From positions 1-64,000 of the forward strand of contig WGNI01000011.1 in NCBI GenBank assembly GCA_016124655.1: a stretch of DNA of 64,000 bases. The letters are read 5' to 3'. The DNA comes from Alphaproteobacteria bacterium (GTDB lineage Bacteria; Pseudomonadota; Alphaproteobacteria; Caulobacterales; Aquidulcibacteraceae). Below the pieces are notes generated by a model, which saw only the letters and a program-made list of their open reading frames with translations, did not search any database and had not been told where the DNA came from. Within the stretch, counting starts at the first letter, position 1, and every line of letters begins with the position of its first letter. The position numbers and the translations under genes were made by a program. This document shows, one piece after another, positions 22,901 through 28,380 of the stretch.

Positions 22901-24996
22901 GCGGCGAAGGCTTGACGGTGGTGCCGACGCGCACAGTTGCGCTCGTGTCGCCCGTGATCCGGCTCGATCGTTCCGGTCGCACGCAAATTCCGCTCGACGT
23001 GCCGGACTTCAACGGCGAATTGCGGCTGATGGCGGTCGCCTGGTCGCGCAGCGCCGTCGGCCAGGACGCCGAAGCGATCACCGTGCGCGATCCCGTGGTC
23101 GCGGAATTGACGTTGCCGCGCTTCATCGCCCCCGGCGACGCCGCCTTCGCGACGCTGCAGATCGACAATGTCGAAGGCCCCGCCGGGGCGTATTCGGTGA
23201 GCTATGCCGGCTCCGGCGCCATTGCGCTCGATGCGCCGCAAAGCCGATTCACATTGGGCCAGCGTCAGCAGCAGCGCGTGCGCATCCCATTCACGTCAAG
23301 CGCTGCAGGTCTCGGCCGCATCACCATGGTGCTGCAGGGCCCCAACGGTTTTCAAAGCATCACGCGCACTTACGACATGCAATCGCGCGCGCCCTTCATG
23401 CCGGTCACCGAAACGCGCACCGAGCCGCAGGCCGCCGGCGCATCCTGGCGCGCGCCGAACGATCTTCTGGCGCAATTCTATGCCGGCCAGGGCCAGGCCG
23501 TGGTGTCCTACTCGAACTTGCCCGGCCTCGACGCCGCCGCCTATCTCGATCAGCTCACCCGCTATCCTTACGGCTGTTCGGAACAATTGGTTTCGGTGTC
23601 GATGCCGCTGCTCTACTTCAACGCCGTCGCGCAACGGATCGATCGCCAACAGGATCGCCGCATCCGCCAGCGCGTGCAGGACGCAGTGACAAAGCTCCTC
23701 GATCGCCAGGCGCCGGACGGATCGTTCGGCCTGTGGAGCGCCGGCGACGGCAGCGCCAGCCCCTGGATCGGCGCCTACATGGTCGACTTCCTGCACCGCG
23801 CGAAAGAGCAGGGCTATATCGTGCCGCAGGCCGCCTTGGATAAGGCCTATGACGGCTTGCGCGCCGTCGCCCGCCTCAATGATTTCGCGTCGATCAATTA
23901 CAATTTCGAAGTCTATCAATGGCCGGGCTCCAACGATTCCACGCGATTGCTGCGCTCGCGCTCGGCCGCCTACGCGCTTTACGTTCTGGCCAAGGCCGAT
24001 CGCGTAAACCCCGGCCAGCTGCGCTACTTCCATGATGCGCTGTTGGACGACGAACCCTCGCCGCTCGCGCGCGCGCAGATCGGCGCAGCGCTCGTGCGGC
24101 TGGGCGATCAGGCGCGCGCGCGCAACGCCTTCCGCGAGGCTGAGCGTGCGCTGGGCTATCGCAACACCGGCGATTGGTATCAGTCGCCGGTGCGCGATCT
24201 CGCCGGCGTCTTGGCGCTCGCCGCCGAAGCGGGGCAGACCGATCTCGTCGCGCGCTTGCGCCAGCGCCTGGAGCGCGAAACGCCGGATCCCGATTCCACC
24301 ATGACGCAGGAACAGGCGCAGCTTCTCCTGGCCATCGACGCGCTGCAGCGCGCCAGCGGGCCCGTGCATGTGTCCCTGAACGGCCAGGCGGACGCGGGCC
24401 GCCGCGTGCTGATCGATGCGGCCAATGTCGCGCGCGCCTTTGTGTTCCAGAACAACAGCCAGGGTCAGCTGTTCCGCACGGTCACGCTGTCCGGCCCGCC
24501 GCGCGAACCGCCCGGCGCAGCCTCCAACGGCTTTTCGATCGACAAGCGCTTCTATGCGCTCAACGGCGGCGGCGTGGACTTGAGCGCACTGCGCCAAGGC
24601 GATCGCATAATCGTCGTCGTCAGCGGCCGCGCCGAAGGCGTACGCACACATCAATCCGTCGTCGTCGATCTTCTGCCCGCGGGTCTGGAGATTGAAAGCG
24701 TGTTGACGCCGGAAGACGGCCTCGGCCCCGAGAACTATGACGGCACGCGCCGCAACGGCCAATTCCCGTTCGTCGGCGAGATTTCCTACGCCAGCGTCGC
24801 CGAGGCGCGTGACGATCGCTTTGTCGGCGCAATCGAATTGCGCAACGCCGGCGGCTATCGCTTCGCTTACATGGCGCGCGCAGTGACGCCGGGAACCTAC
24901 GCCATGCCGGGCGCGCTGGTGGAGGATATGTATCGGCCCGGCGTCAATGCGCGCACGTCGGTGTCCAGCGTGCGCGTCGCGCCGCGGAGCGAATGA
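19957..24996 (+). CDS. bacterial alpha-2-macroglobulin family protein
   Basis: This very large protein (1679 residues) is a bacterial alpha-2-macroglobulin, a periplasmic, inner-membrane-anchored protease trap. One N-terminal membrane helix (about 30-52) is followed by MG domains, an A2M core and the thioester domain: YPYGCSEQ has the reactive Cys1207 within GCxEQ. The thioester cross-links invading proteases after bait cleavage. The gene overlaps pbpC by four bases, the classic pairing thought to defend and repair peptidoglycan after outer-membrane damage. GTG 19957 (GGAG seven bases upstream) and GTG 19987 (GGGGAGGG upstream) are both plausible starts. Confidence 0.94.
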
Positions 24997-27080
24997 CGCC
25001 GGGCAATTCAAGCGCTTCTGGGCGCCGCATCAAGCGCGGCCCGCGCGCCGCATTGCCCTTGTCGCGCGCCGGTAAACGGATCGCCGGCGCGTTGATCGCG
25101 CTGATGCTCGCCGTGCTCGCGCTGGACCTGGCGTTCCCCCCGCCGCTGGAGCGCGCGCGCGTGCTTTCGCCCGTGGTGCTCGATCGCAACGGCCAATGGC
25201 TGCAAGCCTTCACCACGCCGCAAGGCCGCTGGCGCCTCGCCGCGCGGCTCGATGAAATCGATCCAGTCTTCTTGCGCCGCGTCGTGCAGGTCGAGGACGG
25301 CCGCTTCTGGCTGCATCCCGGCGTCGATCCGATCGCGCTGGGGCGCGCGAGCGCGAATTTCGCGCGCACCGGCCGCGTCAGCTCCGGCGGCTCCACCATC
25401 ACCATGCAGGTTGCACGGCTTCTGGAGCCGCGTCCGCGCACGGTCTCGTCCAAGCTGACTGAAATCGTGCGGGCGCTGCAAATCGAGCGCCGAATGTCCA
25501 AACGCGAAATCCTCGCGACCTATCTGCAACTCGCGCCCTATGGCGGCAATCTCGAAGGCGTTCGCGCCGCCGCCCGCGCCTATCTTGAGCGCGATCCGCT
25601 TTGGTTGACCGACGCGGAAATGGCGCTGCTGATCGCCCTGCCGCAGGCGCCGGAAGCGCGCCGCCCCGATCGTCGCGCCGACGCGGCCCGCGCCGCGCGC
25701 GACGCCATGCTCGATCGCTTCGCGCGCATGGGCGCGATTTCCGCCCAGCGCGCCGCAGAGGGAAAATCCGAACCGCTGCCCTCGCGCGCCCCGTTTCCTT
25801 ACGCCGCCGCGCAAACATCACAGCGCCTGGCCGCATCCGGCGAAGCGGTGGTGCGCACCACTTTGGATGCAGCCTTGCAGGCGGCGTTGGAAGCGCTCGC
25901 GCAGCGCAGCGCGCAAGCCTTGGAGACGCAGGCCTCCGTCGCCATTCTCGCCGTCGAGATCGAAGGACGACGCGTGCGCGCATCCGTCGGCGGCGCGGGC
26001 CGCGCGCGCGCCGGCGGCTGGCTCGACATGACCCGCGCGGTGCGCTCGCCGGGCTCGACGCTGAAACCCTTCATCTATGCGCTCGCGCTCAGCGACGGCA
26101 TCGCCGCGCCGGAAACGCTTCTGAACGATGCGCCGCGCCGCTTCGGCAATTATCTGCCGGAGAATTTCGATCGCCGTTTTCATGGCGACGTCCGGCTCTA
26201 TGAGGCGCTTCAGCATTCGCTCAACGTGCCCGCGGTGCAAACGCTGGAGCGCATCGGCGCCGCGCGCTTTGAAGGCGCGCTCGCCAATGCCTATGCGCGT
26301 CCGCGCTTGCCGCACCGCGAAACCAGCGCGCCAGGTTTGGCGCTCGCGCTCGGCGGCGTCGGGCTGACGCTGGAGGAATTGGTCACGCTTTATGCCGCGC
26401 TCGGCGATGACGGAATCGCCCGCCCGCTGCGTTACCAGGAAGACGACGCCGCGCGTCCGCGCCGCTTCGTGCGCCCGCAGGCCGCGCGGCGCGTGCTGGA
26501 GATACTCGAAGACGCGCCGAGCCCGCGCGGCCGCGCGCCGGCCGATTTGATCCAAGGCGCGCCGCGCGTCGCATTCAAGACCGGCACGTCCTACGGCTTT
26601 CGCGACGCCTGGGCGATCGGCGTCGCCGGCGGTTATGTTGTGGGCGTGTGGGTCGGCCGTCCCGACGGCGCGCCAAGACCGGGCGCGACGGGCCGCTCCG
26701 AAGCCGTGCCGATCCTGTTCGAAGCGTTCGACAACATCGCCCCAAGCGGACGCTCAGCGCCCGCGATGGCGCGCAACGATCCTGCGCCGCCGGGCCTGGA
26801 GCGTTTGGCGCAATCGGATCGTTCGAATGCGCCGCAAATTCTGTTTCCGCCTGCCGACGCGGAAGTGTTTTTGCCGGAAGGCGATACGCGCGGCCTTTCG
26901 CTGGCCGCATCGGGCGGACGCGCGCCGCTGACCTGGTATGCGCAAGGCGATGCGTTGGCGGAAGAAGAAACCAGCGGCCGCGTGATCTGGCGCCCGCATG
27001 CGGCGGGCTTCTACGACGTCGCGGTGGTGGACGCCGATGGCCGCAGTGCGCGCGTGCATGTGCGCGTGCGCCGGCAATAA
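24993..27080 (+). CDS. pbpC: penicillin-binding protein 1C (peptidoglycan glycosyltransferase/transpeptidase-like)
   Basis: The 695-residue protein has a membrane helix (about 28-48), a GT51 transglycosylase domain ([15 protein letters not shown] with its catalytic Glu, then [16 protein letters not shown]), a transpeptidase domain with SxxK at Ser355 (GSTLKP), SLN, and KTG at Lys529 ([10 protein letters not shown]), and the C-terminal PBP1C domain (after about 600). It polymerises glycan strands. It follows the alpha-2-macroglobulin gene with an ATGA overlap, so the two are translationally coupled. It ends just before the terminator of the opposite-strand peptide gene. Confidence 0.95.
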
Positions 27081-27085
27081 GTGCC

Positions 27086-27127
27086 GAAAAAGAAAAAAGA
27101 CGCGAGCTGCGGGGGCATGCTCGCGTC
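27086..27127 (-). terminator. rho-independent terminator of the first small-peptide gene
   Basis: Perfect 9-base stem GACGCGAGC/GCTCGCGTC with an 11-base loop. On the minus strand it is followed by TTTTTTCTTTTT. It lies 36 bases after the stop of the peptide gene and also faces the end of pbpC. Confidence 0.93.
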
Positions 27128-27162
27128 TCTTGAGTGGATCGTCGCCATCAGGCGTTGGAGTG

Positions 27163-27270
27163 TCACGCGACGATCTGGGCTGCTTGAAGCATCAGGGCCG
27201 TTGCGATTGCGGCGACCAGCGCCAGCGACGCGACCATGGCGTAAATCTTGGGGAGGGCTTGGGCGTTCAT
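27163..27270 (-). CDS. 35-residue single-helix membrane peptide, copy 1
   Basis: The peptide begins MNAQALPKIYAMVASLALVA and ends LQAAQIVA; apart from one Lys and a short polar start it is one hydrophobic helix that should sit in the membrane. AAAGGA lies eight bases upstream of the ATG. A strong terminator follows, so it is a stand-alone transcription unit. It differs from copy 2 at six of 35 residues, all conservative within the helix (M/I, V/F, A/P, I/L, T/A, L/I). The reading frame is open further upstream, but the duplicate and the ribosome site fix this start. I do not recognise the family. Size and tandem layout resemble type I toxins such as Ldr, or small membrane regulators. Confidence 0.72.
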   Translation of the reverse strand: MNAQALPKIYAMVASLALVAAIATALMLQAAQIVA

Positions 27271-27363
27271 GTCTGCATCCTTTCGCTTCACATCGTGTTT
27301 GATGAAGAGATGCTGAGGCTCTTGCGTTTGGATGCAGGCGACAAAGAAAATGGAACTATTGCC

Positions 27364-27406
27364 GAAAACGAAAAAATGACGCGAGCTGCAGGGGCAGGCT
27401 CGCGTC
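27364..27406 (-). terminator. terminator of the second small-peptide gene
   Basis: Same 9-base stem (GACGCGAGC/GCTCGCGTC) as the first unit, with a slightly different loop, followed on the minus strand by ATTTTTTCGTTTT. It separates the two copies, so each is its own transcript. Confidence 0.88.
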
Positions 27407-27441
27407 TTCTGAGTGGATCGTCGCAATCAGGCGTTGGAGTG

Positions 27442-27549
27442 TTACGCGACGATCTGGGCTGCTTGGATCATTAAGGCGGCGGCGAGGGGGGCGACCAGCG
27501 CCAGCGACGCGAAGATGGCGTAAATCTTGGGGAGGGCTTGGGCGTTCAT
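27442..27549 (-). CDS. 35-residue single-helix membrane peptide, copy 2
   Basis: Paralogue of the peptide at 27163-27270, with 29 of 35 residues identical: start MNAQALPKIYAIFASLALVA, end IQAAQIVA. Stop is TAA instead of TGA. The upstream leader, including AAAGGA and the TGCAGAC just before the ATG, is the same as in copy 1. No antisense gene or regulator is obvious, though a short antisense RNA could be hidden within the repeated leader. Function unknown; see copy 1 for what it may resemble. Confidence 0.72.
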   Translation of the reverse strand: MNAQALPKIYAIFASLALVAPLAAALMIQAAQIVA

Positions 27550-27651
27550 GTCTGCATCCTTTCGTTTCACATCGTGTTCGATAAGGAGATGCAGGCGTCC
27601 CCGCGCTTGGATGCGCGCGCCAAGTCAGAATCGAAGAAAATCGAAGCTGGC

Positions 27652-28380
27652 TTATTCGCCGCGCACGCGCCCGTCGCCTTCTTCGGCGAGAACGATGTCG
27701 GGATTTTCCGGCGCCGGGCTTTCAAACAGCCCCACATCCAGCGGCGCCTGGGGATCGCTCGGCTTCAACGGCGCGGCCAGCCGTTCGGCCAGTTCGTGGC
27801 GCTCGGCCGGCGCCAAAGGGGTGGGCCGCGCCGCCGACGTCAGCGGCCGCCAATAATGCACCGCGACCGCCAGCTTGCCTTCCCGCTCCACGATCTCCGC
27901 CAGCCCCTGGTTCACCAAAGCGCCCCACTGCGCCATTGCGCGATGCCGCGTCCGGTAGAGCTTCGGCAGCGTCTCGCTGACCCGCTCCGCCGGGCCGCCG
28001 AGCACGCCGCGCGCTTCTTCAGGCGTCCGTGCATGGCCGAGCGGACGGCGCACCGCCGCCGCCACGTTCCGCGCCACCGGCGCGGGCGGAGCCGGGCGCC
28101 AGAACCGCAGCGCCACGCGCCACGCCCCCTCGCGCCAGTACAATTCGTAGGTCCCAACGCCGTAGAGATCAGGGAAGGCGGCCTCCGCCGCCTGCGGGCT
28201 GGCGAACGCCTCCGGCAGCTCCTCCACAGCGAGAAAAGCCGCGCCGCCCAAGGCCTCTTCGGCAGCTTCGGCGGTGCGGGCGGTCTTGGCTCCGTCCGCC
28301 CGCGCCTCCGCCGCATTCGCCCCGATGGGGAACGCCGTCACCCGATCCTCGCTCCATCTCGCCTGAGACGCGCTTGTCAT
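27652..28380 (-). CDS. uncharacterised protein with two related WRP-type segments
   Basis: The protein has 242 residues, no signal peptide and no membrane helix. Two segments look like a diverged internal repeat: one with YELYWREGAWRVALRFWRP (about residues 77-95) and one with LAEIVEREGKLAVAVHYWRP (about 166-185), each a pair of beta strands ending in [FY]WRP. The regions between are Ala/Arg-rich helices. I do not recognise a family. I start at ATG 28380; an upstream in-frame ATG at 28440 would overlap the start of the divergent protease gene. The two genes share a short intergenic promoter region. Confidence 0.6.
   Translation of the reverse strand: MTSASQARWSEDRVTAFPIGANAAEARADGAKTARTAEAAEEALGGAAFLAVEELPEAFASPQAAEAAFPDLYGVGTYELYWREGAWRVALRFWRPAPPAPVARNVAAAVRRPLGHARTPEEARGVLGGPAERVSETLPKLYRTRHRAMAQWGALVNQGLAEIVEREGKLAVAVHYWRPLTSAARPTPLAPAERHELAERLAAPLKPSDPQAPLDVGLFESPAPENPDIVLAEEGDGRVRGE

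Follow-up and report, generated by a model that had tools for sequence, protein, structure and literature searches.

The window, by which we mean the whole 64,000-nucleotide stretch of DNA analysed here, carries on its minus strand two open reading frames, each encoding a 35-residue peptide (27163-27270 and 27442-27549, stops included), convergent with the pbpC gene on the plus strand. The features of the locus are the following.

24993-27080, plus strand: pbpC, penicillin-binding protein 1C (Pfam domains Transgly, Transpeptidase and BiPBP_C), the convergent neighbour, with synteny in 30 genomes.
27092-27133, minus strand: intrinsic terminator of copy A, stem GACGCGAGC/GCTCGCGTC with a U run after it (-25.0 kcal/mol, z -7.9).
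27163-27270, minus strand: gene of copy A, peptide MNAQALPKIYAMVASLALVAAIATALMLQAAQIVA, coding part 27166-27270, TGA stop 27163-27165.
About 27278-27283, minus strand: ribosome site AAAGGA of copy A.
27271-27307, minus strand: predicted 5' leader of copy A, between the GCATCT element and the start codon, unstructured (z +1.1).
27308-27335, minus strand: promoter-like element of copy A, a fixed-spacing motif with GCATCC at 27330-27335, a 16-bp spacer and GCATCT at 27308-27313.
27371-27412, minus strand: intrinsic terminator of copy B, a hairpin followed by a U run (-21.2 kcal/mol, z -6.1).
27442-27549, minus strand: gene of copy B, peptide MNAQALPKIYAIFASLALVAPLAAALMIQAAQIVA, coding part 27445-27549, TAA stop 27442-27444.
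27550-27586, minus strand: predicted 5' leader of copy B including its ribosome site, between the GCATCT element and the start codon (fold z +1.2).
27587-27614, minus strand: promoter-like element of copy B, the same kind of fixed-spacing motif with GCATCC at 27609-27614, a 16-bp spacer and GCATCT at 27587-27592.

The two peptides are 83% identical, and the DNA repeat unit of 252 nt has 87% identity between the copies. The 6 differences in 35 residues and the period of 279 bp, both given in an earlier note on this DNA, are reproduced. The peptides are small and hydrophobic, with no charged residue beyond K8, and AAAGGA lies 7 nt upstream of the ATG in both copies. The leader and the hairpin are the best-conserved parts of the repeat and are nearly unchanged; the leader and ribosome site had been described as nearly invariant, and indeed only few positions differ there. 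We refine this comparison in that the promoter hexamers are kept, while the 16-nt stretch between them has diverged. The z-scores of the window hairpins and leaders were computed against dinucleotide shuffles, and the values for the hairpins agree with the earlier proposal that each cassette has its own terminator. Both hairpins were missed by a simple terminator scan, probably owing to its 8-nt loop limit, and a sigma-70 promoter scan of the window locus gave nothing. The predicted leaders of the homologues have a median length of 34 nt, consist of 39% A and 9% T, and are less structured than their shuffles (median z +1.4, in this case against mononucleotide shuffles).

The homologue search in related genomes that the earlier note had proposed matched the window peptide in 31 of 60 genomes of the same family. 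With a DNA pattern scan we gathered 158 ORFs from 123 loci, one of the 158 being an obvious false match. Over 1833 homologue pairs with 75-97% DNA identity the pN/pS is 0.33, the median dN/dS is 0.23, and there is a strong excess of third-position changes. Since synonymous changes dominate, the peptide is the selected product. In the arrays next to pbpC an intact family peptide follows 74 of 77 promoter elements, where intact means QA near the C-terminus with no other sequence demanded; random nonsense and frameshift changes, which had been named as grounds for rejecting the genes, are not seen. At the sequence level, homologues plus purifying selection on the peptide confirm that the window genes exceed chance. 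The earlier description of the locus, a pair of genes in tandem that each have a terminator and code for a hydrophobic membrane peptide, is borne out by the ORFs, the repeat, the hairpins, the homologues and the selection.

Judged by their sequences, both genes belong to an undescribed family with the pattern K/R-x12-P-x-A-x-[AS]-xxx-QAA[QL]IVA, the tail of which ends exactly at the C-terminus. With the columns numbered after a typical 30-residue member and taken over 138 distinct peptides, position 3 is K/R in 136 and position 10, within the hydrophobic stretch, is A/S in all 138; P occupies position 16 in 129 peptides, A position 18 in 134, and A/S/T position 20 in 128. The C-terminal end is QAA[QL]IVA and the last 22 residues are uncharged; the search patterns included the QAAQIVA tail, so that the Q-A-A conservation is partly ascertained. 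Of 184 peptides, 181 have a spacing of 12 residues between the last K/R and the P column, and in 176 the tail has a fixed length of 7 residues from QAA, whereas the length of the N-region varies.

Among 299 genomes of the order searched with a profile, 36 carry the family; they represent 5 of 54 genera, all 5 belonging to a single taxonomic family, and one genome can hold up to 24 copies. The window's own genome (85% complete) has two copies only. The members are placed in one group of Hyphomonadaceae, Terricaulis among them, and in a class-wide sample of 385 genomes the window's own genome is the sole match. The sampled genomes are mostly metagenome assemblies, and with 30-residue queries the single-pair E-values are modest while the profile E-values are strong. 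Pfam, NCBIfam, PHROGs and PDB contain no family above threshold for the peptide, in agreement with the earlier statement that it has no named family. PsbX matched 2 of 20 members weakly (E 0.004), which we judged to be similarity of hydrophobic composition, and Rfam has no family for the locus or for seven related loci. Plasmid and phage collections gave no match to the family, hence a mobile origin is not supported.

In 30 genomes of the genera g1, g3 and g14, one to six head-to-tail peptide genes lie downstream of pbpC on the opposite strand, mostly spaced by 260-330 bp, and no array is present at the pbpC orthologues of the other sampled genera. By its layout, the window pair is a two-gene version of this conserved pbpC-side array; the layout is conserved although the window copies are close duplicates of each other. 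Most family copies in sister genomes sit away from pbpC, hence pbpC need not be the partner of the peptide. A 20-nt inverted repeat with 85% complementarity flanks the array exactly (27062-27081 and 27651-27670 in the window). Its arms coincide with the 3' ends of pbpC and the ORF beyond the array, and it may be due to chance in GC-rich sequence.

With at most one mismatch allowed in each hexamer, a GCATCC/GCATCT-like pair is found in 77 of 89 array genes, and the spacer is exactly 16 in 75 of these 77; among the 12 genes lacking it, some are of the CRP type or the second gene of a pair. The consensus is cGCATCCAa.c.........gcgGCATCTca.aatCA and ends at a median of 40 nt upstream of the ATG. 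Across four whole genomes, 37 of 72 matches to GCATCCA-N12-20-GCATC have N15, that is, the same spacer (hand count). Other sites of the element are located about 20-120 nt upstream of the start codons of envelope-related genes, and the genes behind it include those for outer membrane efflux proteins, DUF2807/DUF4097 exported proteins and a CAAX-type protease, as well as lipoprotein-like genes. The element also precedes an operon of DUF6249, an ECF sigma factor and a small membrane protein in the window's genome and in five other genera. In the window's genome this operon is found as follows.

G000:C5, about 532.8 kb, minus strand: DUF6249-ECF operon (locus L132), sigma factor with Sigma70_r2 and r4_2, with its own GCATCC-N16-GCATCT element.

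Further loci having both the operon and its own element are L125, L131, L234, L235, L237 and L238. The element lies upstream of the ECF operon in G010, G011, G014, G021, G022, G027, G028, G029, G030, G032, G042 and G053, so that the link is seen in genera g3, g4, g8, g13 and g14; for g8 and one g13 genome the match covers the sigma gene but not DUF6249. In the two g8 genomes with a match (G021 and G022), the element of the ECF operon is the only match in the genome. Four GCATCC matches in genus g2 were set aside, being conserved together with their surroundings, coding-like and with no ECF match nearby. We found no paper describing a DUF6249-ECF sigma-small membrane protein operon, and no relevant paper on DUF6249 or on small proteins of Terricaulis.

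Because the same element precedes the DUF6249-ECF operon, the peptide genes look like members of an ECF regulon. On the simplest reading, the ECF sigma factor would regulate itself and have the peptides in its regulon, and we infer that the DUF6249-linked factor itself drives the peptide genes through the element. A GCATCC-type -10 is already known for a sigma factor, ECF29, whose promoter in Sinorhizobium has the -35 GGGAAC and the -10 GCATCCAA (PMC6180224). Unlike in ECF29, the upstream hexamer here is GCATCC instead of GGGAAC, and the sigma gene is encoded with DUF6249. The two-hexamer promoter with fixed spacing, the apparent autoregulation of the sigma operon and the exported and outer-membrane targets make the system similar to envelope-stress ECF regulons. 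However, unlike the ECF regulons compared, this one appears to include a multicopy micropeptide array.

A second type of promoter is found in sister genomes, where most dispersed copies carry GTGAC-N4-GTCAC followed by TAgcTT at a fixed distance. The centre of the palindrome is near -41, as in class II CRP/FNR promoters, and the dispersed copies are often two genes about 130 bp apart. The CRP/FNR-type element is present in 85 members with at most 2 mismatches, 48 of them perfect, versus 6 of 157 shuffles. In many arrays the first-transcribed gene has both the ECF-type and the CRP/FNR-type element, and the window copies have the ECF-type element only. We note that in dispersed copies of genus g14 (for example L005, L008 and L009) the palindrome is accompanied by a leader with a conserved hairpin-like repeat CGAAGCG...CGCTTCG. 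These copies usually have two peptide genes per operon and were not found in the window's genome.

The locus looks like a new family of stress-induced membrane peptides, not an ordinary toxin-antitoxin pair. Coding constraint, array synteny, the fixed promoter element common to the ECF operon, the terminators and the peptide geometry were all computed directly. With evenly balanced confidence, we suggest that these are ECF-driven, lineage-specific membrane micropeptides acting as an accessory subunit or ligand of a partner, and the peptide probably spans the inner membrane once as a helix, its conserved tail at the periplasm. RNA polymerase with the ECF sigma factor that shares an operon with the DUF6249 membrane protein would transcribe two monocistronic genes. 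The factor would be active in an envelope-stress-like state, and each cassette would yield a short mRNA on which the ribosome site is open and which ends at the cassette's own terminator. The helix, itself uncharged, would then insert with the N-terminal K/R in the cytoplasm and the QAA[QL]IVA C-terminus at the periplasmic face, a topology that we infer. We further suggest that the peptide packs on a putative inner-membrane or periplasmic partner as a small accessory subunit or ligand, with the invariant alanines (10, 18, 25 and 26) and the fixed K-x12-P geometry as the packing face and the exact C-terminus as the recognition end. No interaction partner was found for the peptide. Repeats of the cassette would raise dosage and allow variants.

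The A-x-A site, with P at -5, is equally compatible with cleavage of a signal peptide. The main rival, which we think rather unlikely, is a Sec-exported precursor whose first 20-25 residues form a signal peptide; signal peptidase I would cut it after A-x-A and release an uncharged 10-mer that acts in the periplasm or outside the cell, as a signal or as a ligand of a protease. The predicted 10-mers would be LMLQAAQIVA or LMIQAAQIVA in the window, and the commonest in the family is TLNQAAQIVA. This reading accounts for the (-3,-1) rule, which 87% of 184 peptides obey at the same one offset (52% at the next best), for P at -5 in most peptides, for the basic N-region (K/R at position 3 in 136 of 138) of variable length, and for a tail of 7 residues from QAA (176 of 184) ending exactly at the C-terminus. 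However, A/S is always present at position 10 and K-x12-P is fixed in 181 of 184, and a signal sequence needs neither; hence we weight the membrane form above cleavage, without certainty. A broader claim is unlikely: a Gram-negative lineage would process tandem micro-precursors, expressed under ECF-sigma control, into families of 10-residue C-terminal peptides ([TVAL][LM]xQAA[QL]IVA), set free either as stress signals or to bind a protease or receptor of the envelope, the paralogues being a variant repertoire.

Translation of type I toxin mRNAs is restrained by a long or structured leader. The possibility raised in the earlier note, that of a type I toxin-antitoxin locus of the Ldr/Ibs kind, with a membrane-damaging peptide repressed by an antisense RNA, is not supported and we regard it as quite improbable, although the peptides are of similar size (LdrD has 35 aa, PMC8309996), hydrophobic, tandem and separately terminated. 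The leaders are short (about 34 nt), A-rich, open and less structured than shuffles (z about +1 in the window), and the opposite strand of the window locus has neither a promoter-like site nor a GCATCC element. The C-terminal, proline and alanine constraint is specific instead of a loose hydrophobicity, the promoter element is common to the ECF sigma operon and envelope genes, and there is no Pfam match. The locus is like Ldr/Rdl and Ibs/Sib of E. coli in having tandem repeats that each encode a tiny hydrophobic peptide, but differs from them in that its leader is short and unstructured, its promoter element is of the ECF type, its C-terminal motif is strict and its array is lineage-restricted and convergent with pbpC, with no antisense promoter seen. 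A noncoding or repeat element, with selection acting on the hairpin-bearing RNA and the ORF only incidental, would explain why the element is repeated and why leader and hairpin are best conserved between the window copies. But with pN/pS at 0.33, the third-position excess and 74 of 77 promoters leading to an intact peptide gene, an incidental ORF is very unlikely; in addition, the terminator sequences differ between members and Rfam has no match. Entericidin-like small lipoproteins, anchored by a lipidated cysteine, would likewise be tandem, small and exported-looking, and 41 of the 184 members have a motif resembling a lipobox; however, only 65 of 184 peptides have a cysteine, inside the hydrophobic stretch, and Pfam shows no entericidin match, which leaves hardly any room for this reading. 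For the window copies, which have no cysteine, it is refuted.

CydX, KdpF, AcrZ and MgtS are small single-span membrane regulators, mostly single copy, some of them encoded in the operon of the partner. The membrane micropeptide that we propose is of a similar size class and has one hydrophobic helix expected to pack on a larger membrane protein. Unlike these regulators, it is encoded by 2 to about 24 paralogues in each genome, which have separate promoters, and no partner was found. Annotation usually misses genes this short, and the present family, of which a genome may hold up to about 24 copies, has no match in the family libraries, yet is clearly under selection. The promoter element ties it to one identifiable ECF sigma factor, which makes its role directly testable, and would add a multicopy micropeptide layer to an envelope-stress regulon.

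Last, some units with the element have no obvious peptide gene. In L146 (G052), L227 (G027) and L233 (G010), about 100 nt with no obvious gene separate GCATCC-N16-GCATC[CT] from a hairpin-like stretch behind it; these units are possible ECF-controlled small RNAs. In L171, L174 and L189, about 675 nt from the pbpC stop, GCGTCC-N16-GCATCT is followed by about 100 nt conserved without a peptide gene and then by a terminator. This unit may have stayed behind as a small RNA after the loss of a peptide gene, and with such noncoding promoter-terminator units in the array of three genomes a trans-acting RNA may be conceivable. Either CTTTCCCTCTC or CTCTCCCTCTC is present in the unit, a sequence complementary to GAGAGGGAAA, the ribosome site of the neighbouring peptide gene in L171.
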